Below are positions 9,993-54,386 of a stretch of 64,000 nt of DNA, one piece after another; position 1 is the stretch's first letter, and the number at the start of each line of letters is the position of its first letter. Origin of the DNA: an uncultured Oscillospiraceae bacterium (GTDB lineage: Bacteria; Bacillota; Clostridia; Oscillospirales; Oscillospiraceae). The position numbers were made by a program, and so were the translations under genes. Location: assembly GCA_944385765.1 (NCBI GenBank), contig CALWYL010000002.1, positions 1 through 64,000 of the forward strand, read 5' to 3'. The notes beneath the pieces are model-generated. The model did no database searches. It worked only from the letters and a program-made list of their open reading frames with translations, and was not told where the DNA came from.

Positions 9993-11132
9993 TCAGAGCT
10001 TGACCCACTTCTCGTTGACGGCGGACTCGTAGACCGCGTTGCAGATTTCCACCTCACGGCGGCCGTCCTCAAAGGTGGCGTGGCTGGCCCCGCTGTGGTT
10101 GATGATATCGTCGTAGATGCGAATCATGTGGTGCTTCATGCTGTCGGCAAAGCCCTCGTTGTGCCCGCCGGGGTAGCTGGTGTAGCCCGCGGCATTGGGG
10201 TACATGAGGCTGGCGTCCCTGATGAGGGTCTGGTTGGCGCCCTCGCGGCTGCCTATCCACAGCTCATTGCACTTCTCGCTGTCCCAGGCCACCATGGCCT
10301 TGCTGCCGGCTATCTCGAAGTACAGGCGGTTCTTGCGTCCGGCCATGGTCTGGCAGGTGGTGCAGGAGCCGTGTATCTTGTCGCCCATGCGGAAGAGCAC
10401 GGTGGAGTAGTCCTCGGTCTCCACAGGTATCTCCTCGTAGTCCCCGGGCTCGAGTATCTTGCCGGAGTAGGTCTCCACCGGCTTCAGCGGGCGCTTGCGC
10501 ACCTTGTAGAAGGTGGCGAAGTCCGCGCAGACGGAGGTGACGCGCTGTCCGCAGATGTGCTCTATCATGTCGAACCAGTGGGAGCCGATGTCGGCCACGG
10601 TCCTGGTGCAGCCCGTGTACTTGGGCTCTGCGCGCCAGCTGTAGTCCGTGTCCAGGAGCATCCAGTCCTGGGTGTAGGAGCCGTTGATGGAGAATATCTC
10701 GCCCAGGTCGCCGCGCTCTATCATGTCCCTCACCTGCTGGACTATGGGGTAAGCCCTCATGTTGAAGTTCACCGCGCAGACCTTGTTCAGCTTCTTGCCC
10801 AGCTCTATGAGCTCGTCGCACTGCTCCATCTCCAGGGCCAGCGGCTTCTCGCACACCACGTGCTTGCCGGCCAGCAGGGCCTCCTTGGATATCTGGTAGT
10901 GGAGGTTATTGGGGGTGCAGATGTGCACGACCTCGATTTCGGGGTCGGCCAGCAGCTGCTTGTAGTCGGGATAGGCCCTGTCCACGCCCATCTCCGCGGC
11001 CTTTTTCTGGGCCTTCTCGAAGTTGTTGCCGCAGACGGCCACCACCTCGGCGACGCCGGTGCGCCTTATAGCCTCGACATGCACCGGCCCTATGAAGCCC
11101 AGGCCGATGACGCCAACTTTCACTCTGCTCAT
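9993..11132 (-). CDS. Gfo/Idh/MocA family oxidoreductase
   Basis: A 379-residue NAD(P)-dependent sugar oxidoreductase. The N-terminal Rossmann motif GLGFIG is at residues 10-15, the catalytic-lysine motif EKP at 95-97, and the C-terminal substrate-domain motif DIGSHWFD is intact. The family oxidises or reduces sugar hydroxyls, often at C3. It is the last gene of a 14-gene leftward operon that also holds a second Gfo/Idh protein, four TIM-barrel isomerase-like proteins and a ROK kinase. In the C-glycoside deglycosylation model it could be the enzyme that oxidises the glycoside to its 3-oxo form or reduces the released 3-oxo sugar. The two roles cannot be told apart by sequence here. The ATG has a GGAG site. 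Confidence 0.88.
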   Translation of the reverse strand: MSRVKVGVIGLGFIGPVHVEAIRRTGVAEVVAVCGNNFEKAQKKAAEMGVDRAYPDYKQLLADPEIEVVHICTPNNLHYQISKEALLAGKHVVCEKPLALEMEQCDELIELGKKLNKVCAVNFNMRAYPIVQQVRDMIERGDLGEIFSINGSYTQDWMLLDTDYSWRAEPKYTGCTRTVADIGSHWFDMIEHICGQRVTSVCADFATFYKVRKRPLKPVETYSGKILEPGDYEEIPVETEDYSTVLFRMGDKIHGSCTTCQTMAGRKNRLYFEIAGSKAMVAWDSEKCNELWIGSREGANQTLIRDASLMYPNAAGYTSYPGGHNEGFADSMKHHMIRIYDDIINHSGASHATFEDGRREVEICNAVYESAVNEKWVKL

Positions 11133-11191: not shown

Positions 11192-12142
11192 TCATCTTCC
11201 CAGCAGCGCCGCGCCTATTATGCCGGCCTCGTTGCCGAGAAGCGCTTTTTTCAGCGTTGCCTGCTTGTGCGTCCCCTTGGCCAGGGTCTTGCCCTCCACG
11301 GCCCTCTGCAGCGGGATGAGCAGCTCCTCATCCGGGGCGTTGCTTATGCCGCCCCCGATGCAGACGAGCTCCGGCTGGAACGCGTTTAGGCCGTTTATTA
11401 TGCCCTGGGCCAGGTATTTCAGATAGTTGTCCCAGACGCCTCTGGCCGTCCGGTCGCCCATTACCAGGGCGTCTATGATGGTCTTGCCGTTCACGCCCTC
11501 CAGCCTGCCGCCGGCGGTCTGCCACAGCAGGCTCTCCGGCGCGCCGGACATGGCCTCGCGCGCGTCGCTGATGAGCGCCGTGGCGGAGGCATAGGCCTCC
11601 AGGCAGCCCCTGCGCCCGCAGCCGCACTGCCGCCCGTCCATCACCAGCAGCATGTGCCCGGCCTCCACGGCGGCGCCGTTCCAGCCGGTGTATATCCTGC
11701 CGTCCACTATGAAGCCCGAGCCCACGCCCGTGCCCAGGGTGAACATCAGCATGGAGTGGGCCCCGCCGCCGCAGCCGGCGTGATACTCGCCCAGAGCCGC
11801 GCAGTTGGCGTCGTTGCCTATGTACAGCGGCAGGGGTGAATGGGCCTTAAACAGCTCCCTTATGGGCACCTTCTCCAGCGGCAGATTGGGCGTGAACATT
11901 ATCACTCCCTCGTCAGGGTCCACAAAACCAGGCATTCCGGCCCCCACGCAGGAGACCTTGTCCCAGGCCTTATTGCGGTCCAGCAGCCGGCGGCAGAGCT
12001 CCGCCATGGCCCCGGCCAGATACTCGCCGTAGTTCTCCGCTCCCCTGGCCGCCTCTATCTGCTCCTTGTCCACTATGCGGTAGTTCTCGTCCACCAGCCC
12101 GGCCTTGAAGCTGGTGCCGCCCACGTCGATGCCCAGATACAT
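11192..12142 (-). CDS. ROK family sugar kinase
   Basis: A 316-residue ROK protein with the phosphate loop DVGGTSFKAG from residue 6, the catalytic Asp111 in GNDANCAALGE, the glucose-contact motif EAGH at 160-163 and the zinc motif CGCGRRGC at 173-180 followed by LEA. The lack of an N-terminal DNA-binding domain and the complete catalytic set make it a kinase rather than a repressor. It most resembles glucokinase-type ROK enzymes. In the operon it would phosphorylate the hexose released after glycoside cleavage and oxo-sugar reduction, feeding glycolysis. It follows the TIM-barrel gene at 12146 by three bases, so the two are co-translated. Confidence 0.87.
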   Translation of the reverse strand: MYLGIDVGGTSFKAGLVDENYRIVDKEQIEAARGAENYGEYLAGAMAELCRRLLDRNKAWDKVSCVGAGMPGFVDPDEGVIMFTPNLPLEKVPIRELFKAHSPLPLYIGNDANCAALGEYHAGCGGGAHSMLMFTLGTGVGSGFIVDGRIYTGWNGAAVEAGHMLLVMDGRQCGCGRRGCLEAYASATALISDAREAMSGAPESLLWQTAGGRLEGVNGKTIIDALVMGDRTARGVWDNYLKYLAQGIINGLNAFQPELVCIGGGISNAPDEELLIPLQRAVEGKTLAKGTHKQATLKKALLGNEAGIIGAALLGR

Positions 12143-12145: not shown

Positions 12146-13060
12146 TCAGCTCCTTATAAACTGGCGCATGAAGTCCCTGGAGAGCAGTATAGAATCCAGC
12201 TTGTCCTCCAGGCAGCTCTCATAGGCCCTGTCCTCTATCTCCAGCACCACGGGGCCCTGATAGCCCACGTCGTTGAGCGCGGAGACCACGGCCCCCCAGT
12301 TTATCTCGCCCTGCCCGGGCAGTTTGGGGGAGTGGTACTCGGCGGTGGGGGCGAAGATGCCCACCTCGTCGTATTTGTCGTGGAAGAACTTGATGTCCTT
12401 CACGTGGAAGTGGATTATCTTGTCGGCGAAGTTGTAGATGGGCTTGAGGTAGTCCATCTGCTGCAGCACCTGGTGGGAGGGGTCGTAGTTGAGCCCGAAG
12501 CTGTCGCTCTTCACGGCGTCGAACATGTAGCGCCAGAAGGCGGGGTTGCAGGCCAGGTTGGTGCCGTTGGGCCACTCGGTCTTGTAGTACATGGGGCAGT
12601 TCTCTATGCCTATCTTCACGTTGTGCTCCTCGGCGAAGGCGATGAGCCCCGGCCAGACGGACATGAACTCAGCCTTGTTGTCCTCGGGGGAGAGGGCCAT
12701 GTTGCGGCCGATGAAGGTGTTGACCATGCCCACGCCCAGCCTCTCGGCGCCGACGATGCACTTCTTCAGGTGGCTGACCGCCACGGCGCGCTGCTCCGGG
12801 TCGCCGGAGAGGGTGTTGGGGTAATAGGCGATGGCGCTGATAAATACGTTCTTCCTGGCGGTGTAGTCCTTTATGTGGGCCACCATGGCGTCGTCCAGGG
12901 CATCCATGTCGATGTGGGTCACGCCGGCATAGCGCCTCTCGGCCTTGCCGAGGGGCCAGCAGGCGACCTCGACGCAGGCGAAGCCGTTCTCCGCCGCGAA
13001 GTCGATTATCTGGTCAAAATCATACTCGGGCAAGATCGCAGTATTGAATCCCAGTTTCAT
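12146..13060 (-). CDS. Sugar phosphate isomerase/epimerase (TIM barrel)
   Basis: A 304-residue xylose-isomerase-like TIM barrel. The metal ligands expected for the family are present: Glu153 (IGIENC), Asp193 (NYDPSHQ), His219 (HFHVKD) and Glu274 (VLEIED). Such proteins epimerise, isomerise or eliminate across sugar carbons with a divalent metal. In operons with Gfo/Idh enzymes they often process 3-oxo sugars. It lies between the MDR dehydrogenase gene and the ROK gene, three bases from the latter. The ATG is preceded by GGAGGAAAAC. The exact reaction is not assignable. Confidence 0.82.
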   Translation of the reverse strand: MKLGFNTAILPEYDFDQIIDFAAENGFACVEVACWPLGKAERRYAGVTHIDMDALDDAMVAHIKDYTARKNVFISAIAYYPNTLSGDPEQRAVAVSHLKKCIVGAERLGVGMVNTFIGRNMALSPEDNKAEFMSVWPGLIAFAEEHNVKIGIENCPMYYKTEWPNGTNLACNPAFWRYMFDAVKSDSFGLNYDPSHQVLQQMDYLKPIYNFADKIIHFHVKDIKFFHDKYDEVGIFAPTAEYHSPKLPGQGEINWGAVVSALNDVGYQGPVVLEIEDRAYESCLEDKLDSILLSRDFMRQFIRS

Positions 13061-13093: not shown

Positions 13094-14104
13094 TCAGAGC
13101 CGGGACCAGTCGATGAGTATGCCCGTCACCAGCGAGGGCTCGTCTATGAGCTTCATGTAGAGCCCGGGCATCTCGCCGGGGGCCACCACAGTGGTTATGA
13201 GGTCGTCCACCCTGAGCCTGCCCTGGCGGATGAACTGGTAATTCAGCTCATGGATGCGGTTCCAGGTGTAGGGGAAGAACTGGTTCTCCTCCTCCACGAA
13301 CATCGAGGAGTGGGCGCCCATGATGGTCAGGTAGTTGCTTATCACGCCGGGGCCGAAGGCCTGCCTGTGCGGCTCCGTGGTGTCGCCTATGATGAGTATT
13401 TTGCCGTTCTTGCGGGCCATGACGCAGGCGCTGCCCAGCACCTCGGGGTTGCCCGTGGCGTCTATCACCACATCGGCCATGCGCCCGCCGGTGAGGCGGG
13501 CAATCTCCGGCACGGCCTCCTTCGCCCTGGCGCAGACCGTCATGTCGGCCCCGTGCTCCCTGGCCACCGCCAGGGTGCGCGGGTTGGAGGAGACGGCTAT
13601 CAGCGTGCCGGCGCCGGCTATCTTGGCGAACTGCATGGTCAGCAGCCCCACGATTCCCGTGCCGATGACCACCACCAGGTCGCCCAGCTGTATGTTTATC
13701 CGCCGCGCGCCGTTCTGCGTCGTGCGCAGCATGGAGGTCCAGGTGGCCTCCCTGTCGCTTATGTGTTCGGGCAGCAGATTTACCTTCTTGGCCTCCACGT
13801 TGAAGTACTGGCAGTGCGGCGCGTGGGCAAAGACGCGGTCCCCCGGCCGGAATCCCTCAACGCCCTCCCCCACGGAGAGCACGTGTGCGCACATGCTGTA
13901 GCCCGGCTTGAAGGGGTAGCGCACCCAGCTCGCCCAGTTGGTGCCCTCGTCGAACACGCCCCTCAGGCAGCGCTCCTCGGTGCCCGCGCTTACCAGCGAC
14001 AGGCAGGCCCGGCACTGCACCTCCCCCGGCCGGGGCTCTCCCAGCTCCTGCTGGGAGAACTCCACCTGCCGCGGGCCGGTGAACACCAGATCCCAAGATT
14101 TCAT
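13094..14104 (-). CDS. MDR-type dehydrogenase without the usual zinc ligands
   Basis: A 336-residue medium-chain dehydrogenase. The GroES-like N-terminal half is followed by the Rossmann motif GTGIVG near residues 148-153 and a typical MDR substrate tail. The usual catalytic-zinc ligands are altered: the first Cys region reads LVSAGTEE and the normal GHE reads PGYSMC, and the four-cysteine structural zinc lobe is absent. This matches the BchC-like/SAGTE subgroup rather than classic alcohol dehydrogenases. It probably oxidises or reduces a sugar or polyol with NAD(P), but zinc independence is inferred. It sits between the two halves of the operon's Gfo/Idh and TIM-barrel genes. Confidence 0.78.
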   Translation of the reverse strand: MKSWDLVFTGPRQVEFSQQELGEPRPGEVQCRACLSLVSAGTEERCLRGVFDEGTNWASWVRYPFKPGYSMCAHVLSVGEGVEGFRPGDRVFAHAPHCQYFNVEAKKVNLLPEHISDREATWTSMLRTTQNGARRINIQLGDLVVVIGTGIVGLLTMQFAKIAGAGTLIAVSSNPRTLAVAREHGADMTVCARAKEAVPEIARLTGGRMADVVIDATGNPEVLGSACVMARKNGKILIIGDTTEPHRQAFGPGVISNYLTIMGAHSSMFVEEENQFFPYTWNRIHELNYQFIRQGRLRVDDLITTVVAPGEMPGLYMKLIDEPSLVTGILIDWSRL

Positions 14105-14128: not shown

Positions 14129-15295
14129 TTATATCTCGGGGATGACTATGTCGACTTCCTTCCCCAGCTCCGCGGAGCGGGTCATGCCGTCGAGTATGGC
14201 CATCTGATAGAGTATCTGCTCGGCGGGAGAGGGCACCTCGGTGCCGTAGTTGACGGCGCTGACGAAGGCGCGGACCTTCTTGTAGTAGAGCTCGCCTATG
14301 TCCTCGTCCTCGAAGGGCAGCACGGTCTGCACCTGCTCGCCGGCCACGTCGTGGTAGATGGTCAGCGGGCCGTCGAAGGAGCCGTTCCAGGCCGGGGTGG
14401 AGGGGATGCGCAGTCCTCCCTTCTTGCCCAGTATCAGGGCGTCGCCGGTGGTGTCCATGTGCATGGCCCAGGCTATGCGGAAGTCGAGGATGATGCCGCC
14501 CTCCAGGCGGATGAAGGCCGCGGCGAAGTCGTCGACGTCAAAGGCCTCGGCGTACTCGGGATGGCCCTTGTAGTAGTTGGGGTCCTTGCCGAAGAAGTCG
14601 CTCTTGTAGGCGGAGACGGTCAGCGGCTTGGGGTAGCCCACGGCATTGAGCAGCATGTCCAGGGAGTAGCAGCCGATGTCGCCCATGGCGCCGAAGCCGG
14701 ACTTGGAGCTCTCGATGAGGGAGGTGCCGAAGGGGGTAGGTATGCCGTGGCGGCGGCCGCCGCCGGACTGGATGTAGTACACCTCGCCCAGCTCGCCGGA
14801 GCGCACTATGTTCACTATGTCCTGCATGTACTTGGTCATGCGGGGCTGGAAGCCGACGGAGAGTATCTTGTTGTTCCTCTTGGCGGCGCGGCACATGGTG
14901 ACGGCCTCGTCAAGGGTGACGCACATGGGCTTCTCGCACAGGACGTTGGCGCCGGCGTCCAGGGCCTCCACGACCAGCTGGCAGTGGGAGGCGTTGGCGG
15001 TGCAGATGCTCACCACGTCGAGCTTCTCGTGCTCGTACATCTCCTTGGTGGAGTTGTAGACTTTGATGCCCCTGTCCTGTATGCCCAGGGCCTCCATGAA
15101 GGCCTCGGCCTTGCCGGGGACTATCTCGCACAGAGCCACCAGGTCGACGTCCTCGCAGCGCAGGTAGGAATCCACCTGGGCCTCGGCTATCCAGCCGATG
15201 CCGACGACGGCGGCGCGCACCTTCTTATTGGGGTCGATTATGCTCTTCTCCTTGAAGACGTTCTTCGTGAACTTGTCCATGATTACCTGTGCCAT
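14129..15295 (-). CDS. Gfo/Idh/MocA family oxidoreductase, candidate glycoside 3-oxidase
   Basis: A 388-residue oxidoreductase with an unusually long N-terminal lead of about 27 residues before the Rossmann strand (VVGIGWIAEAQ at 30-40). EKP is at 121-123. The C-terminal motif is DIGCYSLD, so the usual His is Tyr, as in glucose-fructose-oxidoreductase-like members. It lies two genes downstream of the fused C-glycoside deglycosidase gene, in the position where DgpA-like enzymes occur in known C-deglycosylation clusters. DgpA-type enzymes oxidise the C3 hydroxyl of the glycosyl unit so the C-C bond becomes cleavable. I infer, but cannot prove, that this is that enzyme. The ATG has AAAAGGAG. Confidence 0.85.
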   Translation of the reverse strand: MAQVIMDKFTKNVFKEKSIIDPNKKVRAAVVGIGWIAEAQVDSYLRCEDVDLVALCEIVPGKAEAFMEALGIQDRGIKVYNSTKEMYEHEKLDVVSICTANASHCQLVVEALDAGANVLCEKPMCVTLDEAVTMCRAAKRNNKILSVGFQPRMTKYMQDIVNIVRSGELGEVYYIQSGGGRRHGIPTPFGTSLIESSKSGFGAMGDIGCYSLDMLLNAVGYPKPLTVSAYKSDFFGKDPNYYKGHPEYAEAFDVDDFAAAFIRLEGGIILDFRIAWAMHMDTTGDALILGKKGGLRIPSTPAWNGSFDGPLTIYHDVAGEQVQTVLPFEDEDIGELYYKKVRAFVSAVNYGTEVPSPAEQILYQMAILDGMTRSAELGKEVDIVIPEI

Positions 15296-15358: not shown

Positions 15359-16165
15359 TCACATCCGTCCACGGCCCGCTCCGGCCAGCGCCCTCTCAGT
15401 GAGCGCGCGGATGTAGTCGAGCGACACGGGCCCGTCCCTCAGCCAGTCGGGCTCGTCGTGGCACTCGAAGGATATCCACTCCGCCGCCGTCTGCGCCACG
15501 CGGCGGATGAAAAACTCGTAATTGTAACCGTCGTCCGGCATGGGGGCGACGCGCTTCACGCCTATGGGGTTGTCTATGTGGGCGTGGATTATCTGGTCGG
15601 CGTAGCGCAGTATGTCGTCCGGCTCGTCCCCGGCCCTCACCAGGTGGCGGATGTCGGTGAGCAGGTAGATGTTGCTCTCCGCGCTGTCCTCACAGAGCTC
15701 CGCCGACTGCCGCAGCTGCGTCAGGTAGTCCGTGTAGTCGCCGCAGACCGTCTCCAGGGCTATCTTCACCCCGTGGGATTTGAACACCCGGGCCGTGTCC
15801 CGTATAAAGCCGTCTATGCGCCGCGCCCTGCGCCCGCTTTCGCTGTCGCGCCCCACGGTCCTGATGGGCCCGGCGGCGAACACCATGACCGGGCAGCCCA
15901 TGCGCGCGAGGCGCTCGCCGTCCCGCTCGAACTGCTCCAGCCAGCCCTCGCGGTCGAAGGCCCCGTCGCAGATGTGGACGGTGTTCTCCATTATCCACGA
16001 GCAGGCGCAGGCCTCCAGGCCCAGGGCCCTCATGCGCGCTATCAGCGCGTCGAACTGCCCGTCGTCCAGCCTCCGCAGCTCGCAGCTGTCCAGCTCCACG
16101 CCGTCAAAGCCGAGGGCGCTGAAGGTCTCCAGCTCCCTGAGCTTGGCAAAACTGGCGAATTTCAC
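15359..16165 (-). CDS. Sugar phosphate isomerase/epimerase (TIM barrel)
   Basis: A 268-residue xylose-isomerase-like TIM barrel with ligands Glu138 (IALETV), Asp171 (LTDIRH), His196 (HAHIDN) and Glu234 (SFECHD). It starts with GTG (16163-16165) with GGAG seven bases upstream. It is 13 bases after the fused deglycosidase gene, so they are almost certainly co-translated. Its small size and HAHID motif resemble hydroxypyruvate-isomerase or 3-oxo-sugar isomerase types. It may convert the released 3-oxo hexose or its elimination product. Function beyond the fold is not assignable. Confidence 0.8.
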   Translation of the reverse strand: MKFASFAKLRELETFSALGFDGVELDSCELRRLDDGQFDALIARMRALGLEACACSWIMENTVHICDGAFDREGWLEQFERDGERLARMGCPVMVFAAGPIRTVGRDSESGRRARRIDGFIRDTARVFKSHGVKIALETVCGDYTDYLTQLRQSAELCEDSAESNIYLLTDIRHLVRAGDEPDDILRYADQIIHAHIDNPIGVKRVAPMPDDGYNYEFFIRRVAQTAAEWISFECHDEPDWLRDGPVSLDYIRALTERALAGAGRGRM

Positions 16166-16178: not shown

Positions 16179-17591
16179 TCAGGCGTCTATGTAGCGCTGC
16201 ATCATCTCCTGGTTGGCCCTGATGATGCCGAGGTTGTCCACGTCGAGGTCCCGCTGGTCGTGGAAGATGCGCTGGCCCTCGTACTCGGTGGCCACATAGC
16301 CGCTCCAGCCGTTCTCCTTGAGCACGCGGAAGATGGTCTCGTTGTCCACGCTGGGGTCAATGCCGTCGCGCATGTCCAGCACCTTGGCGTGCACGTGGGA
16401 GATGTAGGGTATGTAGTGGCTCAGCAGCTCCGGGTCGCAGTAGGTGTAGCTGTAGGCGGTCTTGGCCCAGGCCAGCTCCTTCTCTCCGGGGTTCATGTCC
16501 TTTATGCGCCCGAGCATCTCGTCGTAGCTCATGCGCTCGGCGTAGCAGCGGGAGATGAGCTTGACGGTGGCCTCGTCGGCGCCTCCGCGGATGGCCTTCT
16601 CCTCGTGGAAGGGCACCACGCTCCTGGTAAAGATGCCGAAGTCGGGTATCAGGCTGAAATACTTGGTGTTGGTGCGCTTGATGAAGTCCACGTACTGGTC
16701 CACCTGCGGGGTGCAGAGCCGGAAGGGCGGGTGGAGCTCTATGCCCATCACCACGTTGTACCTCTCGGCGCAGGGCAGGGCCCTCTCCACTATGCGCAGC
16801 GGTATGGTGTACACCACGCGCAGCACCTTGAAGCCCATGCGGGCCGCCAGCTTTATGTTGGTCTCCAGTATCTCCACCGCGCGGTCGTCGGGGATGTCCA
16901 CGCCGTCGTAGAGCTGGCCGTCCATGAACATGTCGAAGGCCACGGGCTTGACGTGGTATTTGTCCATCCACTCGAACCACTGGTTGACCCAGCTCTCAGG
17001 CGGGTTGGGGAAATTGGGGATTATGGCCTCGGAGATTATCTCCACGCCCTCGGCGCCCATCTCGGCCGTGGCCCTGATCATGCCCTCAGCGTCCATCTTG
17101 CCCAGGTAGAGCTCGTCCTGGAAGCTGTAGAAGGATATGGCCCTCTTTATCTTGGCGGGCAGCTCATAGCAGCCGTTGAGCTCCAGCTCCTTCTCGTCCT
17201 CGGCCACGAACATCACCGGCGGAATCTCCATGCCGTTGACTATCCTTATCTCCTCGAACACCCTGACGCTGTGCCTGCCCTCGGCCAGGCCGCCGGGCTT
17301 TTTGATGTGCAGGTAGGCCACCTCGCCGAAGTCCCAGCGCACGTCGTCGCGCCCCACCATCTGCTCAAAGGTGAAGCTGCCGGCCTTCACGTTGAAGGTC
17401 ATGTCCTCCTTGCCGTAGGTCTGGCCGTCCACGGTGACTCTCATGTCGTTGACGATGCCCAGCACTACTCCCCTGTAATAGCTGACCTTGACGCCAATCT
17501 GGAAACCCACGACCTGGCCGTCATCCACCACGTTTTTGAAGCTCTCGTCGCAAATGAAGTACTTGTCAAACATATGGGGCATGGATAACAT
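16179..17591 (-). CDS. Fused C-glycoside deglycosidase-like protein (beta-subunit domain plus TIM-barrel alpha subunit)
   Basis: A 470-residue protein made of two parts normally encoded as separate subunits. Residues 7-140 match the C-glycoside deglycosidase beta subunit pattern (DUF6379): FDKYFI, ESFKNVV, YYRGVVLGI, VTVDGQ, WDFGE and KKPGGLAEGRHSV in order. Residues 148-470 are an alpha-subunit-like TIM barrel (FYSFQDELYLGKM, NQWFEWMDKY) with likely metal ligands Glu285, Asp317, His401 and Glu436. In DgpB/DgpC-type enzymes the two subunits cleave 3-oxo C-glycosides by a metal-assisted elimination. The frame is continuous, with no stop or shift at the junction (about 140-150), and the ATG has AAAGGAAAG. 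The neighbouring Gfo/Idh gene would supply the 3-oxo substrate. O-glycosides are also possible substrates. Confidence 0.8.
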   Translation of the reverse strand: MLSMPHMFDKYFICDESFKNVVDDGQVVGFQIGVKVSYYRGVVLGIVNDMRVTVDGQTYGKEDMTFNVKAGSFTFEQMVGRDDVRWDFGEVAYLHIKKPGGLAEGRHSVRVFEEIRIVNGMEIPPVMFVAEDEKELELNGCYELPAKIKRAISFYSFQDELYLGKMDAEGMIRATAEMGAEGVEIISEAIIPNFPNPPESWVNQWFEWMDKYHVKPVAFDMFMDGQLYDGVDIPDDRAVEILETNIKLAARMGFKVLRVVYTIPLRIVERALPCAERYNVVMGIELHPPFRLCTPQVDQYVDFIKRTNTKYFSLIPDFGIFTRSVVPFHEEKAIRGGADEATVKLISRCYAERMSYDEMLGRIKDMNPGEKELAWAKTAYSYTYCDPELLSHYIPYISHVHAKVLDMRDGIDPSVDNETIFRVLKENGWSGYVATEYEGQRIFHDQRDLDVDNLGIIRANQEMMQRYIDA

Positions 17592-17613: not shown

Positions 17614-18369
17614 TTATAAATCGAAGTATTCCCTCAGCCGGCGCAGCCCGTCGGCCGGCTCGCGGGCCGGGAAATACTCCAGGCCCACCCACTGGTCATA
17701 GGCTGTCCGGGCTATGCTGCGCAGGACATAGTCGTAGTTTATCTCGCACGAGTCCAGCTCGTGGCGCAGCGGCACCCCCGCCGCGTGGAAATGTCCTATC
17801 TTGTCCACATTGGGTATTATGCGGGAGAGCAGGTCGCCCTCGGATATCTGCTGGTGATAGATGTCGTAGAGCATCTTCACCCTCGCACTGCCCACCTCGT
17901 CCATTATCTGAAAGGCCTCGTCGGCCCCCGTGAGGTAGTTGTGCGGCCTGTTCACCCGGCGGTTGGAGGCCTCCAGCACTATCGTGACCCCCCGGGCCTC
18001 GGCCTCCGGGGCCACGGCCCTCAGCCCCTCCACTATGGACTCGTGCTGCCTCTGGCGGCACTCGCCCGTGTCGTCGCCGGAGAGGACGGTTATGTGGCTC
18101 GCGCCCAGCGTCTCCGCCACCTCGAAGGCCCTCCCCACGGCGTCCACAAAGGCCTGCCGCTGGTCCGCCCGCGCGAGGGAGACCTCGTCGGCGTCAAAAT
18201 TCACCAGGTGCAGCCCCAGCTCCTCCATCAGCTCCCTCATCTCGCCCAGGTCCCAGGCGTCCGTGTGCCAGAACTCGAAACCGCTGTAGCCCAGGGACTT
18301 TATCTCCCTCAGGGCCACCGAGAGCTCCGTGCCCTTGTATATCGTGTCTATGCAGGGGGAAATATTCAT
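17614..18369 (-). CDS. Hydroxypyruvate isomerase-like TIM-barrel protein
   Basis: A 251-residue xylose-isomerase-like protein of the hydroxypyruvate isomerase (Hyi/OtnI) group: LEASN (Glu133), LYDIYHQQISEGDL (Asp169), GHFHAAGVP (His195) and VGLEYFP (Glu231) are the group's signature ligands and surroundings. Hyi converts hydroxypyruvate to tartronate semialdehyde, and relatives isomerise other short ketoses. Its start overlaps the stop of the UPF0303 gene by four bases (ATGA), and the fused deglycosidase gene follows 22 bases later. It presumably acts on a fragment of the sugar degraded by the operon. Confidence 0.8.
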   Translation of the reverse strand: MNISPCIDTIYKGTELSVALREIKSLGYSGFEFWHTDAWDLGEMRELMEELGLHLVNFDADEVSLARADQRQAFVDAVGRAFEVAETLGASHITVLSGDDTGECRQRQHESIVEGLRAVAPEAEARGVTIVLEASNRRVNRPHNYLTGADEAFQIMDEVGSARVKMLYDIYHQQISEGDLLSRIIPNVDKIGHFHAAGVPLRHELDSCEINYDYVLRSIARTAYDQWVGLEYFPAREPADGLRRLREYFDL

Positions 18370-18854: not shown

Positions 18855-19595
18855 TCACCACCACTTTATGAGGTCGGTGACCCTCTCGCGGACCTCTATG
18901 AAGTCCAGGTCGGTGACGCAGCGGGGGCGCGGCAGCGGGTTGTGCATGCGCTCTTTTATCTTGGTGGGCTTGTTGGTCAGCACCAGGATGTCCTCGCTTA
19001 TGTACACGGCCTCCTCTATGTTGTGGGTGATGAAGATTATGGTGGTCCCCAGCTTCTCCCATATGTTTATGAGCTCGTCTTCCAGCTTGAAGCGCAGCTC
19101 TATGTCCAGCTGGCCGTAGGGCTCGTCCATCAGCAGCAGCTCCGGCTTGGTGGCGAAGGCCCTGGCGATGACCACGCGCTGCAGCATGCTGGCGGAGAGC
19201 TGGTTGGGATAGTGCTTGCGGAAATTCTGCAGGCCCACCATCTCTATGACCTCGTCCACCGCCTGCTTCACCTCGCTCTCCGGACGGTGCTTTATGTTCA
19301 GTCCGAAGGCGATGTTCTCCTCCACGTTGAGCCAGGGCATGGTGGAGTACTCCTGGAAGATATAGGACACGTTGTGCTTGCGCAGGTTCACGGGCTCGCC
19401 GTCTATGAGTATCTCGCCCGCGGTGGGCTCGTACAGTTTGGTAATGCAGTTGAGGAAGGTGGTCTTGCCGCAGCCCGTGGGGCCGACGACGCAGAGGAAC
19501 TCGCCCTTTCTCACATCGAAGGAGACATCATCAAGGACCAGCAGATCGCCGAACTTCTTGGTCATGTTCTTCACGCTGACTTTAATATTATCCAC
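18855..19595 (-). CDS. ABC transporter ATP-binding protein, NitT/TauT type, degenerate signature motif
   Basis: A 246-residue ATPase of the nitrate/sulfonate/taurine importer family. Walker A is GPTGCGKTT (38-46), Walker B is LLLMDEP (153-159) and the switch His is present (His191 in THNIEEA). The signature motif, however, reads LSASM (133-137) rather than LSGGQ/LSGGM. The start is GTG at 19595 with GGGAGG seven bases upstream. It forms a pair with the next ATPase (19611-20378) and two permeases, so the transporter is probably a heterodimer in both layers. The altered signature would face the Walker A of the partner ATPase. Confidence 0.88.
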   Translation of the reverse strand: MDNIKVSVKNMTKKFGDLLVLDDVSFDVRKGEFLCVVGPTGCGKTTFLNCITKLYEPTAGEILIDGEPVNLRKHNVSYIFQEYSTMPWLNVEENIAFGLNIKHRPESEVKQAVDEVIEMVGLQNFRKHYPNQLSASMLQRVVIARAFATKPELLLMDEPYGQLDIELRFKLEDELINIWEKLGTTIIFITHNIEEAVYISEDILVLTNKPTKIKERMHNPLPRPRCVTDLDFIEVRERVTDLIKWW

Positions 19596-19610
19596 TGGAT
19601 TACCTCCCTC

Positions 19611-20378
19611 TCAGAGCGTCTTGTCGACGACGCTTTGTATCTCGCTCCTCAGCGCCAGGAACTTGGGGTCGGTGTAGGACCTCGGCCTGGGCAGGTCGAT
19701 TACATACTCACATTTCACCGTGGTGGGGCAGTTGGTCAGCACCACCACGCGGTCGGCCAGGAACACGGCCTCCTCGATGTTGTTGGTGACGAATACGACA
19801 GTGCGCTTCTCTTTTTCCCATATCTTCACTATCTCGTCCTGCATGAGGTACCGCGTCTGGGCGTCCAGGTGGCCGAAGGGCTCGTCCATGAACAGCACCA
19901 CGGGCTCGTTGCAGTAGGCGCGGGCGATGCCCACACGCTGCTGCATGCCGCCGGAGAGCTGGTTGGGGAAGGAGTCCTCAAAGCCCCCGAGGCCCACCAG
20001 GTCGATGTAATACTTGGCCTTCTCGCGCCTCTCCGCCTTCTTTATCCCCTTCATGCGCAGCCCGTACTCCACGTTCTGCATGACGGTGTACCAGGGGAAC
20101 AGCGCCAGGGTCTGATAGACGAAGCCCCTCTCCGGGTCGGGCCCCTTGACCTCTTTGTCGTTCACGATTATCCTGCCCTCCGTGGGGGTCTCGAGCCCCG
20201 CCATCAGGTTCAGCACGGTGGTCTTGCCACACTGGCCGGGCCCGAAGAGCACCACGAACTCGTTCTCCTTCACTTCCAGGTTGAATTTGTTCACGACGTG
20301 GTTGGTCGTGGTCTTGGTGGTGAACGTCTTGTCGACGCTCTCACAGGATATCATTGTCTTGCGTTTCTCGTCCATCAT
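19611..20378 (-). CDS. ABC transporter ATP-binding protein, NitT/TauT type, switch His replaced by Asn
   Basis: A 255-residue ATPase paralogous to its neighbour. Walker A is GPGQCGKTT (46-54), the signature LSGGM (141-145) is intact and Walker B is VLFMDEP (161-167). The H-loop reads VTNNIEEA, so Asn199 replaces the catalytic switch histidine. In an ABC dimer the nucleotide site built from this protein's Walker motifs also uses the partner's signature, which is itself degenerate (LSASM). Both defects thus fall in one composite site, leaving the other canonical. It starts at ATG 20378, overlapping the upstream permease stop by four bases. Confidence 0.88.
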
Positions 20379-21160
20379 GTACCCCTCTTATTCCATCTTA
20401 CGAGCTTGTTCTCCGCGAAGCGCATGGCGGCGGCCAGTATGTAGCCCAGGATGCCTATCATGACTATACCGGCCAGCTCCTGCAGGACGTTGTTGTTGTC
20501 GGTGCCGCGGATGATTATCCAGCCGAGGCCGTCCACGGAGCGTATCATCTCGGAGCCGACGACCTGGCCCCAGGCGGCGTTCAGCCCCAGCTGCAGCCCG
20601 GCGAATATGTAGGGCACGGCCCCGGGCAGCACCACCGTGAGAAACACGTTCTTGTCGTTCGCGCCCAGCATCTTGGCCACGCCCACCAGCTGCTGGTCGG
20701 CCGCCTTGGCGCCGTCATAGGCGTTCTGCAGCACGGAGACCAGGGTGGCCAGGGCTATCAGGAAGTACTTCGACTCGTCGTTGATGCCGAACCAGAGTAT
20801 GGCCAGCGGTATCCAGGCGACGGGCGGGATGGGACGGACTATGCTGAATATGGGCCTCACTATGGCGTCTACAGGCCAGTACATGGCCATCAGCAGCCCC
20901 AGCACCACGCCCACGGCGGAGGCGCCGATGTAGGCGGGGATGATGCGCTTGAGGCTCATGAGCGCGTGGTAGGGGATGGTCCCCGGCCCTATCTTCTCCA
21001 CAAAGTGGTCGAAGAAGAACTCCAGCGTCTCGATGGGTCCGGGCATGAACATGCCCACGTCGGTGAAGTTGGTCAGCGCCCCCCAAAGCAGTCCGAAGAC
21101 GAGGAAGGCGATTACCGCGCAGCCCGCTTTGGTCAGGCTCTCTTTGAGTTTCTTAGGCAT
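20375..21160 (-). CDS. ABC transporter permease, NitT/TauT type
   Basis: A 261-residue integral membrane protein of the binding-protein-dependent permease family, with about six helices and the cytoplasmic coupling loop typical of the family (VGVAKMLGANDKN, then LPGAVPYIFAG). Homologues move nitrate, sulfonates, taurine or aromatic/heterocyclic compounds. It overlaps the other permease gene by eight bases and the downstream ATPase gene by four, so the three are translationally coupled. It pairs with the 21153 permease to form the channel. Confidence 0.87.
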   Translation of the reverse strand: MPKKLKESLTKAGCAVIAFLVFGLLWGALTNFTDVGMFMPGPIETLEFFFDHFVEKIGPGTIPYHALMSLKRIIPAYIGASAVGVVLGLLMAMYWPVDAIVRPIFSIVRPIPPVAWIPLAILWFGINDESKYFLIALATLVSVLQNAYDGAKAADQQLVGVAKMLGANDKNVFLTVVLPGAVPYIFAGLQLGLNAAWGQVVGSEMIRSVDGLGWIIIRGTDNNNVLQELAGIVMIGILGYILAAAMRFAENKLVRWNKRGT

Positions 21161-21944
21161 CGTGGTTCCTCCCCTTCACTATCTTTTTCTCCACCTGGCC
21201 GATGAGCCAGGTTATCAGGGAGCCCAGGGCTCCGATGCACAGCATGCCCACGATGATGACGTCGGGCCTGAATATGCCGCGGCACTGCTGTATCATGTAG
21301 CCGAGGCCCTCGGAGGAGGCGATGAGCTCGGCGGCCACTATGCTCATCCAGCACGCGCCCAGGGCGACCCTGGCGCCGGTCATTATCATCGGCAGGGCCG
21401 TGGGTATGGCCACCTTGAAGAGCATCTGCATCCTGGTCGCGCCGAAGGTCCTGGCCACCCAGAGGTGCACGTCCTTGGTCTGCTTGATGCCCGAGTAGGC
21501 GTTGAGCACGCAGGGCACCATGCCGGAGATGAAGATGGTCACGGCCTTGGAGGTGAAGCCGATGCCCATCAGCACTATCATCAGAGGCGCCCAGGCCAGG
21601 CCCGGGATGGCCTTCACGAAGTCGAATATGGGGCGGGCCAGGAAGTCCACCGGCCTGTACCAGGCCATGAAGATGCCCAGGGGTATGCCCACTATCAGCG
21701 AGAGGGCGTAGCCGGAGAGCGCCACCTTCAGGGAGGCCCACATGTGCGCCTGGATGGTCCCGCCGTCCGGCGCCGTGTGGTTGAGCTTGTAGAAGAACGT
21801 CTCCACCACCTGGATGGGGCTGGCCAGGGTGAGGTTGCTGAATATGTGGAGCACATCCGTCACGAGCTCCCAAATCAGCAGAAAGACCAGCAGCGACAAC
21901 GCCGATAACAGCATGTATTTTTTCTTTCTGTTCTTATCAGTCAT
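21153..21944 (-). CDS. ABC transporter permease, NitT/TauT type
   Basis: The 263-residue second permease of the importer, with the same fold and a coupling loop around LWVARTFGATRMQ and IPTALPMIMTG. The first helix follows a short Lys/Arg-rich N-terminus. It is the first gene after the intergenic hairpin at 22033-22059, so its expression may be lower than that of the binding protein upstream. The pair of distinct permeases and distinct ATPases suggests an obligate heterotetramer, less common in this family than homodimers. Confidence 0.87.
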   Translation of the reverse strand: MTDKNRKKKYMLLSALSLLVFLLIWELVTDVLHIFSNLTLASPIQVVETFFYKLNHTAPDGGTIQAHMWASLKVALSGYALSLIVGIPLGIFMAWYRPVDFLARPIFDFVKAIPGLAWAPLMIVLMGIGFTSKAVTIFISGMVPCVLNAYSGIKQTKDVHLWVARTFGATRMQMLFKVAIPTALPMIMTGARVALGACWMSIVAAELIASSEGLGYMIQQCRGIFRPDVIIVGMLCIGALGSLITWLIGQVEKKIVKGRNHDA

Positions 21945-22032
21945 GATCTCAATCCTTTATCAAACGCTGAAAGCGATTTTTCTCAAAGACGTCTTGGCCG
22001 CAGCCATTTTCCGCTCCGCCTGCTTTTAAAAA

Positions 22033-22059
22033 GGGGGCAGCGCCGAAGTCACTGCCCCC
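22033..22059 (-). terminator. Attenuator-like hairpin between binding-protein and permease genes
   Basis: GGGGGCAG (22033-22040) pairs with CTGCCCCC (22052-22059), and on the minus strand the stem is followed by CTTTTTAAAA. This is a rho-independent shape inside the operon and probably gives partial termination, with more binding protein than membrane parts. Confidence 0.65.
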
Positions 22060-22092
22060 AGAGCTAGTTGCTCAGGTATTTGCCCGGAGATA

Positions 22093-23247
22093 TTACTTGC
22101 TGAAGGACTTGACCTCCACGCCCAGAGCCTCGGACAGGAGGGAGGAGTCGTAGTGCTCGTAGATGTTGACGTTCTCGGCGGCGATGGCGCCGGTCTCGCC
22201 GTAGAAGTCGGCGACAGCCTGCATGCCCTCGCCCATGTAGTAGTCCTCGCCGCTCACAACGTCGGTGGTGAAGAGGCGGTTCAGGGCGAACTCGTAGTCG
22301 ACCTTCGCGTCGTCGAACTCCTTGCCGTTGTCGTTGTAGAACTCGTTGACGGCGGCCTTGTAGCTCTCGTAGTCGTCGGCCCAGTCATTTATCAGGCCGT
22401 AGATGACCTGCAGGAAGATGACGATTTCGTCGTGGCGGTTCTCGATGGCCTCGGGGGTGAAGAGGACGGGGTCGCGTATCTCGATGCCGGTGGCGTCCTC
22501 CACGCTGGCGGCGATGGTGTAGCCGCCGTCGGTGACGACCATGTCGTAGCAGTAGGGCATCTTGGTGCCGATGGCGTCGCCGTTGCCGGTCATGAAGGCC
22601 TGGGCGCCGGCGGCGTCCTCCATGTTGATGAAGGTGATGTCGTCAGCGGTGAGGCCGAACTGGGAGATGTACTTCTCTATGTAGAACTGATGGGCCTGGC
22701 CCAGCTGGCAGATGAAGCTCTTGCCGCGCAGGGTGTCGGCGCTGCCGTACATCTCGGGGTGCTCGGCGATTTCGCCCTGCACGGAGAGGATGTCGCTGTC
22801 GTTGCGGACGACTATGCAGTCGGAGCCGACGGAGTCGACCTCGCCGACCATGGTCAGCAGTCCGTTGGCCAGGGAGTAGACGGAGGCCAGGCCGCTGATG
22901 CAGCCGTCCAGCTCGCCGGCGCCCACAGCCTCGTTGATGGCGGCGCCGCCGGAGAAGATGGCCAGGTCGACGTTGATGCCGGCCTCCTCAAACAGGCCGT
23001 ACTTGTCGGCGTAGTAGAGGGAGACGCCCATCTGGTGGGGCATGGTGCCTATGCGCAGGGGCTCCTTGTCGAGGTAGTTCTCCTCGGCGGGCTCTTCGCC
23101 GGCGGGGGTCTCGCTCTCGGCGGGGGTCTCGCTCTCGGCGGGGGCCGGGGTCTCCTCCTCGGCGGGCTCGGAGCCGCAGGCGCTGGTCAGGGACACGATC
23201 ATCGCCAGGCAGAGCAGCAGGGCTAACAGTTTGGACGCTTTTTTCAT
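22093..23247 (-). CDS. ABC transporter substrate-binding lipoprotein (NMT1/SsuA-like)
   Basis: A 384-residue lipoprotein. It has a Lys-rich start, a hydrophobic signal and a cleavage Cys near residue 24, followed by an acidic Pro/Glu/Thr linker of about 30 residues. The mature part begins RIGTMPHQMGVSLYYADKYGLFEEAGI, in pieces the hallmark of NMT1/THI5/SsuA-type binding proteins for sulfonates, nitrate, pyrimidines or aromatic compounds. It is the first gene of the 14-gene operon, 115 bases behind a strong promoter. A sugar-only ligand would be unusual for this fold; a glycoconjugate with an aromatic or anionic part fits better, which is inference. The linker is nearly identical to that of the other sugar-binding lipoprotein at 48982. 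Confidence 0.85.
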   Translation of the reverse strand: MKKASKLLALLLCLAMIVSLTSACGSEPAEEETPAPAESETPAESETPAGEEPAEENYLDKEPLRIGTMPHQMGVSLYYADKYGLFEEAGINVDLAIFSGGAAINEAVGAGELDGCISGLASVYSLANGLLTMVGEVDSVGSDCIVVRNDSDILSVQGEIAEHPEMYGSADTLRGKSFICQLGQAHQFYIEKYISQFGLTADDITFINMEDAAGAQAFMTGNGDAIGTKMPYCYDMVVTDGGYTIAASVEDATGIEIRDPVLFTPEAIENRHDEIVIFLQVIYGLINDWADDYESYKAAVNEFYNDNGKEFDDAKVDYEFALNRLFTTDVVSGEDYYMGEGMQAVADFYGETGAIAAENVNIYEHYDSSLLSEALGVEVKSFSK

Positions 23248-23361
23248 TGTCTCATTCTCCTTTTTTATTTCTACCGTTTCCGGTATCTTACCGCATGGGC
23301 CCTGAAATTTGTCAAGGCAAAATGTAATATTTTTTCATTGCTTGTCAAATTTCTTGCTTTA

Positions 23362-23534: not shown

Positions 23535-24512
23535 GTGTACAAGAGGATAACCATAGAGGAAGTCGCGCGGCTGGCCAACGTCTCCACGGCCACCGTGTCG
23601 CGCGCTTTGAACGACTCCCCCGCGGTCAGGGAGAGCACCAAGCAGAAAATCGTCAGCATAGCCCAGAGTCTCGAGTCCCAGCGCTCCCCGTCCCCCAAGT
23701 CCTCAAAGATTCTGCTGGCCAGCTTCCCCGAGCTGACGAACCCCTTCTACTCGGATATCTTTCGCGGCATACTGGATTCGGCCGGCAACAGGGGCTACGA
23801 GGTGCTGTTCTACTCCATGAGGGACTACAGCCTGCCTGAGAGCTATTCGTTTTTCTTTGAAAACCGTTTCTATGCCGGGCTGATGATTTCACACGCCCTG
23901 CCCAACGCCCAGATACAGCAGAAGCTGCAGGAGCTGGTCCCCGTGGTCAAGATTTCCGAGTACTCCGACGACGACCCGGCCTACGTGGCCACCGACAACT
24001 TCAAGGCCGCCTATACGGCGGTGCAGTTCCTCATCGCCGCCGGGCGGCAGCGCATCGCCCTCATCAACTCCTCGCTGCGCAACAACTACGCCCTGCGGCG
24101 CGAGGCGGCCTACCGCGCCTGCCTGGCCGACAACGCCCGCGCCGTCAACGAGGACTGGGTGGTGCATCTGACGGACATAAACTACGGCGCCTGCCTGGAC
24201 GCCGCCTCCCGGCTGCTGCGCCAGGAGGAGCGCCCCGACGCCATTTTCTGCGTCTCGGACGTCTACGCCGCCGCCGCCACCAAGGCCGCCGCCGGCCTGG
24301 GGCTCAACGTCCCGCGCGACGTGGCCGTGGTGGGCTTTGACAACGTGGACATGAGCATCGTCACCACCCCCGCCATCACCACCATCGCCCAGCCGGCCTT
24401 CCAGTTGGGCGCCCAGGCCTGCAGCATGCTGATAGACCGCATAGAGTACCCCTCCACCCCTCCCCGCCGCGTCCTCCTGGACGGCGAACTAATCCTCCGC
24501 GGCACCACCTGA
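23535..24512 (+). CDS. LacI family transcriptional regulator
   Basis: A 325-residue LacI/GalR repressor. The N-terminal helix-turn-helix is clear (TIEEVARLANVSTATVSRAL, residues 6-25, then hinge residues NDSPAV), followed by a periplasmic-binding-protein-like sensor domain ending in the standard DGELILRGTT tail. It begins with GTG at 23535, with only a weak ribosome site. It is divergent from the importer/deglycosidase operon and is the obvious candidate for its repressor. The inducer is probably a sugar or glycoside from that pathway, which is inference from position. Confidence 0.9.
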   Translation: MYKRITIEEVARLANVSTATVSRALNDSPAVRESTKQKIVSIAQSLESQRSPSPKSSKILLASFPELTNPFYSDIFRGILDSAGNRGYEVLFYSMRDYSLPESYSFFFENRFYAGLMISHALPNAQIQQKLQELVPVVKISEYSDDDPAYVATDNFKAAYTAVQFLIAAGRQRIALINSSLRNNYALRREAAYRACLADNARAVNEDWVVHLTDINYGACLDAASRLLRQEERPDAIFCVSDVYAAAATKAAAGLGLNVPRDVAVVGFDNVDMSIVTTPAITTIAQPAFQLGAQACSMLIDRIEYPSTPPRRVLLDGELILRGTT

Positions 24513-48981: not shown

Positions 48982-50334
48982 ATGAAGAAGATCCTAGCAT
49001 TTCTCCTGGCAGCCGTGATGCTGCTGAGCCTGGCAGCCTGCGGCTCCGAGCCCGCAGAGGAAGAGACTCCGGCCCCCGCCGAGAGCGAGGCCCCCAGCGG
49101 CGAAGAGCCCAGCGGGGAGGAGCCCAGCGGCGAAGGCGAGCATGAGCCCGTGACTCTGCGCGTCTATGTGCGCTACTCCGACGACGACACCATCCTGCCC
49201 TACGACTACGCCGTTGAGTGCCTGGCCGAGGACATGCCCTGGGTCACCCTGGAGCTCGACCCCATGCCGGCTGACGACGGCGTGAAGCTCAAGTCCATGG
49301 TCGCCACCGGCGACATGCCCGACATCTTCGCTGTCGGCTCCGTCGATATACTTGATTCCATGATAGAGGCCGGCGCGGTGCAGGACCTCACCGAGGAAGT
49401 CACCGCCAACGGCTTTGTGGAGAAGGTCCTGCCCGCCGCCTACAGCAAGTTCTATGACGAGGACGGCAAGATTTACACCCTGCCCTACACCGGCACCGAG
49501 GTGGGCCTGCTCTTCGTGAACAAGACCATCTTCGAGGAGAACAGCGTGGAGATTCCCCGCACCATCGAGGAGTGGATAGCCGCCGCCGAGACCTTCTCCG
49601 CCGCCGGCATCACCACCCTGCCCATCTTCGGCAAGGAGCAGTGGATATGCAACGCCCTCTATGACGCCCTGGTCACCCGCTACATCCCCGACGGCCTCAG
49701 CAGCCTGCACGACGGCAGCCACAGCATCCGCGAGGAGGGCTACCTGAAGGCCGCCCAGGACCTCGAGGCCCTTGCCGCCGCCGGCGCCTTCCCCGACGGC
49801 GTCACCACGCTGAACTACGAGCAGGCCACCAACCTCTGGTACAACGGCCAGGCCGCCATGTTCCTCAACGGCCAGTGGGAGATTCCCACCACCGAGCAGT
49901 ACCTCGGCGACGCCGCCGACTGGATTCCCATCCCCGCCGCCTCCGAGGAGGAGTATGAGACCTCCCAGCACGCCTTCATCGGCGGCACCGGCACCCCCGC
50001 CGGCCTGAGCGTCTGCACCTGGAGCGAGAACTACGACGTCGCCATCGACGTGGCCTGTTACCTGGCCGAGAAGTACGCCGAGTACAACTACACCCAGCGC
50101 GGCTCCACCACCATCGCCGTCCGCTGCGACAAGCCGATGGAGGTCGAGCAGTCCGCCATGAACGCCAAGCTCTCCGAGGCCATCCAGGAGGCCACCAGCA
50201 CCACCGTCATGGCTGGCAGCGGCACCAACACCGAGCTCTACACCGTCCTCGGTGAGGGCACCCAGAGCCTGCTCGCCGGCGTTATGACCGCCGAGGACTT
50301 CATCGAGAGCATAGCCCTGGTCACCGGAGACTAG
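48982..50334 (+). CDS. ABC transporter sugar-binding lipoprotein (CUT1 family)
   Basis: A 450-residue lipoprotein: Lys-rich start, hydrophobic core, lipobox LAAC with Cys20, then an acidic Pro/Ser/Glu linker with GEEPS repeats to about residue 53. The mature domain is an extracellular solute-binding protein family 1 fold, with MVATGDMPDIFAV and NGQWEIP typical of oligosaccharide-binding members. It captures a sugar or oligosaccharide for the two permeases downstream. It is the first gene of an eight-gene rightward operon, with GGGAGG before the ATG. Its post-lipobox linker nearly equals that of the NMT1-like lipoprotein at 22093, pointing to shared ancestry of the leader. Confidence 0.9.
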   Translation: MKKILAFLLAAVMLLSLAACGSEPAEEETPAPAESEAPSGEEPSGEEPSGEGEHEPVTLRVYVRYSDDDTILPYDYAVECLAEDMPWVTLELDPMPADDGVKLKSMVATGDMPDIFAVGSVDILDSMIEAGAVQDLTEEVTANGFVEKVLPAAYSKFYDEDGKIYTLPYTGTEVGLLFVNKTIFEENSVEIPRTIEEWIAAAETFSAAGITTLPIFGKEQWICNALYDALVTRYIPDGLSSLHDGSHSIREEGYLKAAQDLEALAAAGAFPDGVTTLNYEQATNLWYNGQAAMFLNGQWEIPTTEQYLGDAADWIPIPAASEEEYETSQHAFIGGTGTPAGLSVCTWSENYDVAIDVACYLAEKYAEYNYTQRGSTTIAVRCDKPMEVEQSAMNAKLSEAIQEATSTTVMAGSGTNTELYTVLGEGTQSLLAGVMTAEDFIESIALVTGD

Positions 50335-50358
50335 TCTCCCCTTATCGGACGATCCACG

Positions 50359-50384
50359 AAGGAGGGGCCTCACGGCTCCTCCTT
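50359..50384 (+). terminator. Attenuator-like hairpin after the sugar-binding protein gene
   Basis: AAGGAGGGGCC (50359-50369) pairs with GGCTCCTCCTT (50374-50384) over a TCAC loop. It has only a short TTT tail, which suits partial termination or 3'-end stabilisation of the binding-protein message. Confidence 0.6.
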
Positions 50385-50407
50385 TGGAATAAAGAAAGGG
50401 GCGGCAA

Positions 50408-51289
50408 ATGAAAAAATACTTAGGCAACAAAGCGATGATTCTGGCGCTGATAGCGCCCACCATGATACTGATATGCGTCATGGTCCTCTACCCTCTGGTC
50501 ATACTGTTCACCAAGAGCTTCACCGAGTGGGACGGTCTCAACCCCTCCACTTTCAAGGGCATGGACAACTACATCCGGCTCTTCAAGGACCCCATCTTCT
50601 ACACCGGCTTACAAAACGGCATCATCTTCGCCCTGGTGCAGACCTGCATCCAGATTCCCGTGGCCACCCTGCTGGCCTTCGCCGTCAAGGACTCCGGCAG
50701 ATTTGAGAAGAAGTTCTTCCGCATCACCTACTATCTCCCCGCGGTGCTGTCCATAACCGTTGTCGCGCAGCTCTGGCTGTCCATGTACAACGCCGAGTAC
50801 GGCCTCATCAACAAGATTTTCGAGCTCATGGGCCTCGAATACCGCCAGAACTGGCTGGGCGACGGGGACTCCGGCATCGTGGCCATCGCCATAGTCAACA
50901 CCTGGCAGTTCACCGGCTACCAGTTCATTCTTTTGCTCTCCGCGGCCAACTCCATCCCCGAGCACTACTTCGAGGCCGCGCAGATAGACGGCTGCAGCAA
51001 GTTCAAGGCGCATCTGCGCATCACGCTGCCGCTGATGCAGGAGAGCTACAAATACTGCCTGATAATCGCCATCACCGGCGGCCTCAACGCCTTCGCCACC
51101 ATGAACATCATGACCGGCGGCGGTCCCGGCACCTCGACATACACCCTGACCTACCTCATGTACCGCTCCGCCTTCAAAGTCGGCAACTACGGTTACGGCT
51201 GCGCGTCCGCGATTATGCTGGTGGTCCAGTGCCTGATCGTCTCCATCATAATCAACAAGGCGGTCGCCCGTGAACGCATAATATACTGA
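50408..51289 (+). CDS. ABC sugar transporter permease (MalF/UgpA-like, CUT1)
   Basis: A 293-residue membrane protein with about six helices and the CUT1 EAA coupling motif EAAQIDGCSKFKAHLRITLP (about residues 190-209). The N-terminus MKKYLGNKAMILALIAPTMI leads straight into helix 1. It forms the channel with the next gene. No ATP-binding gene is present anywhere in this operon, so a shared MsmK-like ATPase from elsewhere in the genome is expected. Confidence 0.92.
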   Translation: MKKYLGNKAMILALIAPTMILICVMVLYPLVILFTKSFTEWDGLNPSTFKGMDNYIRLFKDPIFYTGLQNGIIFALVQTCIQIPVATLLAFAVKDSGRFEKKFFRITYYLPAVLSITVVAQLWLSMYNAEYGLINKIFELMGLEYRQNWLGDGDSGIVAIAIVNTWQFTGYQFILLLSAANSIPEHYFEAAQIDGCSKFKAHLRITLPLMQESYKYCLIIAITGGLNAFATMNIMTGGGPGTSTYTLTYLMYRSAFKVGNYGYGCASAIMLVVQCLIVSIIINKAVARERIIY

Positions 51290-51307
51290 GGAACGGGGGT
51301 CGCTGCA

Positions 51308-52162: not shown

Positions 52163-52208
52163 CACGCCCCGCGTTAAAGAAAAAATAAAACACAAGGAGG
52201 AAAATCCT

Positions 52209-53360: not shown

Positions 53361-53382
53361 GAGGCACCGGGAGGCTGAGCCG

Positions 53383-54369: not shown

Positions 54370-54386
54370 GCCCCGGAGGTAACTAT

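Follow-up and report, generated by a model that had tools for sequence, protein, structure and literature searches.

A lid-bearing single-chain C-glycoside deglycosidase predicted in two genera of Oscillospiraceae

In the gut, C-glycoside deglycosidases (CGDs) free plant polyphenols, for example daidzein, from glycosides linked through carbon. In a 64,000-nucleotide stretch of an uncultured Oscillospiraceae genome (GenBank GCA_944385765.1, contig CALWYL010000002.1, positions 1 to 64,000; hereafter the window), an initial annotation made from the sequence proposed that the beta subunit and the TIM-barrel alpha subunit of such an enzyme are joined in one uninterrupted reading frame. The locus raises the question of whether this is a genuine single-chain CGD and what reaction it catalyzes.

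The gene occupies positions 16179 to 17591, as originally given, on the minus strand, which had been left unstated, and encodes 470 amino acids plus a stop codon in one frame without an internal stop; the two subunits are not separately encoded. Pfam and PDB matches both bear out the proposed architecture, with the beta domain first as in the enzyme type represented by PDB entry 8QRZ. The HMM comparison suggested at the outset gave a match of residues 8–117 to PF19906 (CGD beta subunit, DUF6379; E = 1.5e-33, 115 bits, cut-off 27.6) and of residues 172–319 to the xylose-isomerase-like barrel PF01261 (E = 6.8e-14). We delimit the beta-subunit domain (CGDB) to residues 7–138 (17178–17573, minus strand), which match 8qvc_B (1e-16), DfgB, DgpB and other beta chains among PDB sequences, and the alpha-subunit barrel to residues 148–470 (16182–17150, minus strand), the best PDB match of residues 147–468 being 8qvc_A (3e-58). 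A linker of about nine residues (139–147; 17151–17177, minus strand) separates them, as judged from the DSSP assignment of a structure model, in which one strand spans residues 126–138 and the next, belonging to the barrel, starts at 148. In two AlphaFold2 models (pLDDT 89–90, pTM 0.73–0.75), the alpha domain fits 8qvc_A with a TM-score of 0.95–0.96 and an rmsd of 1.6 Å and the beta domain on 8qvc_B with a TM-score of 0.88–0.90, all TM-scores by target length. The fused gene is the sole CGD beta match in its own genome and, among the matches listed, also the sole match to the window protein (P0001).

A fused orthologue with 86% identity is encoded in a metagenome-assembled genome (MAG) from a different genus of the same family (locus L002, genome G026), recorded as uncultured Oscillospiraceae with the isolate name ‘Lapin’, presumably rabbit. 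Comparison of the two fused genes gave dN/dS values of 0.13 for the beta domain, 0.12 for the alpha domain and 0.33 for the linker, the last from few sites; both halves are under purifying selection. Among the matches listed, the fused gene was absent from the other genomes of its own genus that were searched, many of them incomplete. The operon is patchy in its distribution and may have moved between genera. We conclude that the window protein is a true single-chain CGD common to two genera of one family.

Active-site residues were assigned by alignment with DgpC and DgpB with AgCGD2 residues numbered as in Mori et al. 2021 (PMC8563793), and their conservation was assessed in an alignment (A3) of 16 full-length homologues, all of which except two fused proteins are adjacent genes read through their stop. 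Both this alignment and its companion A2 are without plasmid-derived rows, and adjacent in-frame pairs were joined through the stop into paired rows. The metal set initially named is in place, comprising Glu285 (16737–16739; AgCGD2 Glu147), Asp317 (16641–16643; Asp179), His401 (within 16383–16391; His269) and Glu436 (within 16278–16286; Glu305), all coordinates on the minus strand. Beyond that list, the protein keeps the metal ligand Lys403 (within 16383–16391; AgCGD2 Lys271), the catalytic base His287 (16731–16733; PuCGD His143, AgCGD2 His149), Glu438 (within 16278–16286; AgCGD2 Glu307, PuCGD Glu301) and, in the beta domain, Tyr39 (17475–17477), which is identified by alignment and a YYRG motif as the equivalent of the PuCGE beta-subunit Tyr39 that activates the aglycone (PMC10628242). 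The metal ligands, Glu438 and Tyr39 are invariant among the 16 homologues and His287 is conserved in at least 90%. PuCGE Tyr303, the second oxyanion tyrosine, aligns with Gln440 of the window protein.

The idea that the beta domain is the lid did not hold up. We take it to be a misreading, since Mori et al. assign the moving lid to an insertion of four helices in the alpha subunit, the beta subunit contributing part of the aglycone pocket (PMC8563793); one review likewise words the lid as belonging to beta (PMC12141560). In the window protein the lid insertion lies in the alpha domain at approximately residues 327–380 (16452–16613, minus strand), with model helices at 327–335, 340–351, 356–366 and 370–379/380. 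The beta domain has a four-residue insertion, NGME (N118–M121; 17229–17240, minus strand), in the beta7–beta8 loop, which is common to the L002 orthologue and missing from the other gut relatives aligned. It is reminiscent of an insertion of equal length, in the same loop, that Mori et al. associate with a preference for C6-glycosides (PMC8563793), and may offer a lead to substrate preference.

The fused gene lies within a run of minus-strand genes extending from a candidate promoter at about 23348 down to 9993. The promoter (TTGACA-16-TACATT, 23321–23348, minus strand) comes from a consensus scan, and a divergent LacI-family regulator (23535–24512, plus strand), also present in L002, lies beyond it. 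The run begins with an ABC importer (18855–23247), its gene order kept in L002, and a small HbpS-like protein (PF03928; 18366–18851). TIM-barrel isomerase-like proteins are encoded directly upstream of the fused gene (17614–18369, hydroxypyruvate-isomerase-like, 72% identical in L002) and directly downstream (15359–16165, PF01261 3e-24, 68% identical). They are followed by a DgpA-like Gfo/Idh/MocA oxidoreductase (14129–15295; best PDB matches DgpA1 9m3d, 3e-35, and DgpA 7xr9, 3e-33), a Zn-dependent alcohol dehydrogenase-like protein (13094–14104), a further TIM-barrel protein (12146–13060; match to the 2-hydroxy-3-keto-glucal hydratase 8ro4, E = 4e-8), a glucokinase-like ROK family sugar kinase (11192–12142; PF00480 2e-68; glucokinase model TIGR00744 4e-66, at 223 bits below its cut-off of 260) and a second Gfo/Idh/MocA oxidoreductase (9993–11132). 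The L002 operon is a gene-for-gene match, minus the Zn-dehydrogenase and plus a DeoC-like gene. Genes 50–52% identical to the TIM-barrel gene at 12146–13060 adjoin split CGDs in genome G582 (L097) and in Enterococcus raffinosus (L109), where two Gfo/Idh genes and a ROK gene also stand beside the split CGD.

The importer comprises two distinct ATPases, two distinct permeases and an NMT1/SsuA-like binding protein, an unusual composition for a glycoside importer, and a strong stem-loop with a T tail (22033–22059, minus strand) lies between its binding-protein and permease genes, as for a partial terminator. Elsewhere in the window, a second cluster (48982–58172, plus strand) carries sugar ABC transporter genes, three Gfo/Idh/MocA proteins, a PF01261 barrel and a GH13-type enzyme; it has no beta subunit and perhaps serves a 3-keto O-glycoside route.

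We propose that the gene product is very probably a CGD in one chain, acting as a 3-keto-glycoside beta-eliminase, with a linker of about nine residues connecting the beta subunit to the N-terminus of an alpha subunit that bears the lid, and that this protein is most likely able to act on C-glycosides. By homology, the DgpA-like oxidoreductase, predicted from its sequence to be the oxidizing partner encoded nearby, would oxidize the sugar C3 hydroxyl of an imported glycoside. The fused enzyme would bind a divalent metal, probably Mn2+, via Glu285, Asp317, His401, Lys403 and Glu436; His287, with Glu438, would take the C2 proton while Tyr39 of the beta domain would aid ionization of the aglycone phenol, and the C–C bond (C–O in O-glycosides) would break to give the aglycone and 2-hydroxy-3-keto-glucal. 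The neighboring TIM-barrel protein (12146–13060) is a predicted hydratase of this glucal. An oxidoreductase would then reduce the 3-keto sugar, the second Gfo/Idh/MocA protein being predicted to act in this reduction or in hydride recycling, before phosphorylation by the ROK kinase, completing a putative route of oxidation, elimination, hydration, reduction and phosphorylation. In favor of this reading, no other CGD-like gene that could provide a separate subunit was found in the genome among the matches listed. Against it stand Gln440 at the PuCGE Tyr303 position, the binding protein of a type unusual for sugars, and a relative placement of the two domains in the models that is inconsistent with 8QRZ. 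Identity to any characterized CGD is only about 25–36%, so the substrate, and even the preference for C- or O-glycosides, is not fixed.

It is conceivable, if unlikely, that the single chain is a 3-keto-glycoside lyase acting mainly on O-glycosides or another linkage, with C-glycosides as minor substrates or not cleaved at all. PuCGE itself cleaves 3-keto-O-glycosides (PMC10628242), DgpA-type enzymes oxidize both O- and C-glycosides (PMC11239390), and Gln440 replaces PuCGE Tyr303. In PuCGE, however, Bitter et al. 2023 found that Tyr39, supplied by the beta subunit, is needed for C-glycosides and hardly for O-glycosides: the alpha subunit alone cleaved an O-glycoside at about 1.4% of the native level and was inactive on C-glycosides, and the Y39F variant lost its C-glycoside activity while keeping most of that on O-glycosides (PMC10628242). 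The retention of the beta domain and Tyr39 under purifying selection in the window protein argues for C-glycoside cleavage.

Considerably less probable is a beta domain that serves as a scaffold or oligomerization piece for an alpha domain with some other isomerase or epimerase reaction. PF01261 barrels catalyze many isomerizations, and the two such proteins flanking the fused gene have no assigned reaction, but the barrel finds its best structural matches exclusively among CGD alpha chains (TM-scores 0.82–0.96 by target length, vs about 0.62–0.76 for epimerases and other isomerases) and the CGD residues Lys403, Glu438 and Tyr39 are kept. An origin of the single frame in misassembly, or additional production of a separate alpha part from an internal start, is very improbable indeed, because a fusion differing by mostly synonymous changes occurs in an independent MAG of another genus with both halves under selection and, although possible start codons exist at residues 111, 121, 126, 127 and 129, with a weak AAGGA 11 nt ahead of codon 121, residues 130–165 have none, so that a clean alpha subunit cannot begin just ahead of its first strand.

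In the fused chain, the beta domain may sit on its own barrel or on that of a neighbor. Against the full 8QRZ chain the models gave an rmsd of 17–19 Å and a TM-score of about 0.6, which is what superposition of one domain alone would give; both differ from it in domain orientation, with a pTM of only 0.73–0.75, and the second had been built with more paired rows. Since the linker has only about nine residues and the beta domain is expected at the barrel's catalytic face, we tentatively suggest that the fused chain may act as a domain-swapped homo-oligomer, each beta domain completing the active site of a neighbor, though we consider this arrangement unlikely.

Other fusions were found among the relatives, in a survey of 1,250 genomes sampled from one phylum, whose counts are lower bounds and give no frequency of fusions, and on a plasmid. 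On the Arthrobacter sp. StoSoilB13 plasmid, two single-chain CGDs from different lineages lie in tandem (L045:5986-8797); the plasmid table gives no annotation for them. A fusion in the reverse order, alpha then beta, is encoded at L101:2037-3461 (G816:C44; 474 amino acids from its Met), with both Pfam domains above their cut-offs, in a genome of the same family as the window genome (genus g59). G816:C20 looked like a further fusion when open frames were inspected and was rejected, a stop being present between the genes. L034 and L035 gave weak PF19906 matches that the search with the window protein did not confirm. The retrieved loci held 87 distinct adjacent gene pairs, 52 in the order beta–alpha and 35 alpha–beta. 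That gut relatives might characteristically be one stop codon away from fusion was discarded, because the frames of the beta–alpha pairs are spread 18/18/16 and the 18 of 52 in the same frame reflect chance. G816 and G070, both of genus g59, hold at least 25 and at least 14 PF19906 beta-subunit copies, respectively (e.g., L102, L104, L105 and L111–L127), in drafts of 1.6 and 0.9 Mb that are 77% and 69% complete. Catenibacillus decagia, by comparison, is reported to have six dgpBC clusters (PMC11170127), far fewer, and the two g59 organisms are apparently C-glycoside specialists.

In a tree of 79 alpha domains, its PDB rows being partial sequences copied from alignments, the window protein and its L002 orthologue form one clade, apart from the actinobacterial fusions, with strong branch support. 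The short-lid clade has the 8QRZ type as its sister (100/99). The second of the two Arthrobacter fusions groups with a split enzyme, a placement flagged as possibly due to long-branch effects, and a long branch also leads to the reverse-order fusion, at another point of the tree. This topology implies at least four changes of the fused state. AU tests rejected a single clade of all five beta–alpha fused rows (p = 0.0006) and did not reject one uniting the window pair and the 8QRZ type (p = 0.079), so that the tree favors, and does not prove, an independent origin of the window fusion.

CGD subunits are reported to be non-interchangeable between enzymes (PMC8563793), and their repeated fusion, in both orders, makes it testable whether fusion keeps partners together. 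If the domain swap is true, the independent fusions, beta–alpha here and in actinobacteria and alpha–beta in G816, would represent repeated fixing of subunit pairing. Trials of CGDs as catalysts for making C-glycosides are under way (PMC13273386), and a natural single chain with the full metal set and a lid would spare the co-expression of matched subunits.

Known CGDs had been described at the outset as consisting of two separately encoded subunits, and this does apply to several of the closest systems. The gut enzymes DgpBC/PuCGD of strain PUE (7BVR, 7EXZ) and DfgAB/EuCGD (7BVS) share with the window protein a Gfo/Idh/MocA partner, the metal and catalytic residues and the beta Tyr39, but they are two polypeptides forming alpha4beta4 (PMC8563793) rather than one chain, and EuCGD has no lid. 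The soil actinobacterial CarBC/AgCGD2 (7DNM) has the same alpha/beta architecture, residue set and lid in alpha, but is made of two polypeptides, as a heterodimer in AgCGD2, with an FAD-dependent oxidase partner (PMC12724307). The O-glycoside beta-eliminase AtOGE has the TIM barrel, Mn2+ site and catalytic His in common with the window protein, but lacks a beta subunit and a lid, and His replaces one metal Glu (PMC10628242). For both halves, the nearest solved structure is the CGD of Deinococcus aerius (8QVC/8QVD/8UMC; identity 34% and 1.6 Å for alpha, 36% for beta), whose two subunits are nonetheless separate; its relative D. aetherius has the alpha gene before the beta gene and, in place of Gfo/Idh, a GMC oxidoreductase. 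As a generalization, however, the description fails and the window fusion is not unique, given the Arthrobacter fusions and the Microbacterium testaceum C-glucosyl deglycosidase (8QRZ/8UN2), a single 435-residue chain solved by cryo-EM and released on 2025-04-23. Like the window protein, the latter places beta before a TIM-barrel alpha domain with a short linker, and it matches both halves, at about 25% identity. The gene described here is accordingly a useful extension and no surprise, a single-chain CGD having already been solved. The Microbacterium alpha domain lacks most of the lid region, grouping with the short-lid clade, and has Gln at the metal-His position; what is new relative to it is a single-chain CGD that bears the lid, keeps the canonical metal His401 and has a Gfo/Idh partner.
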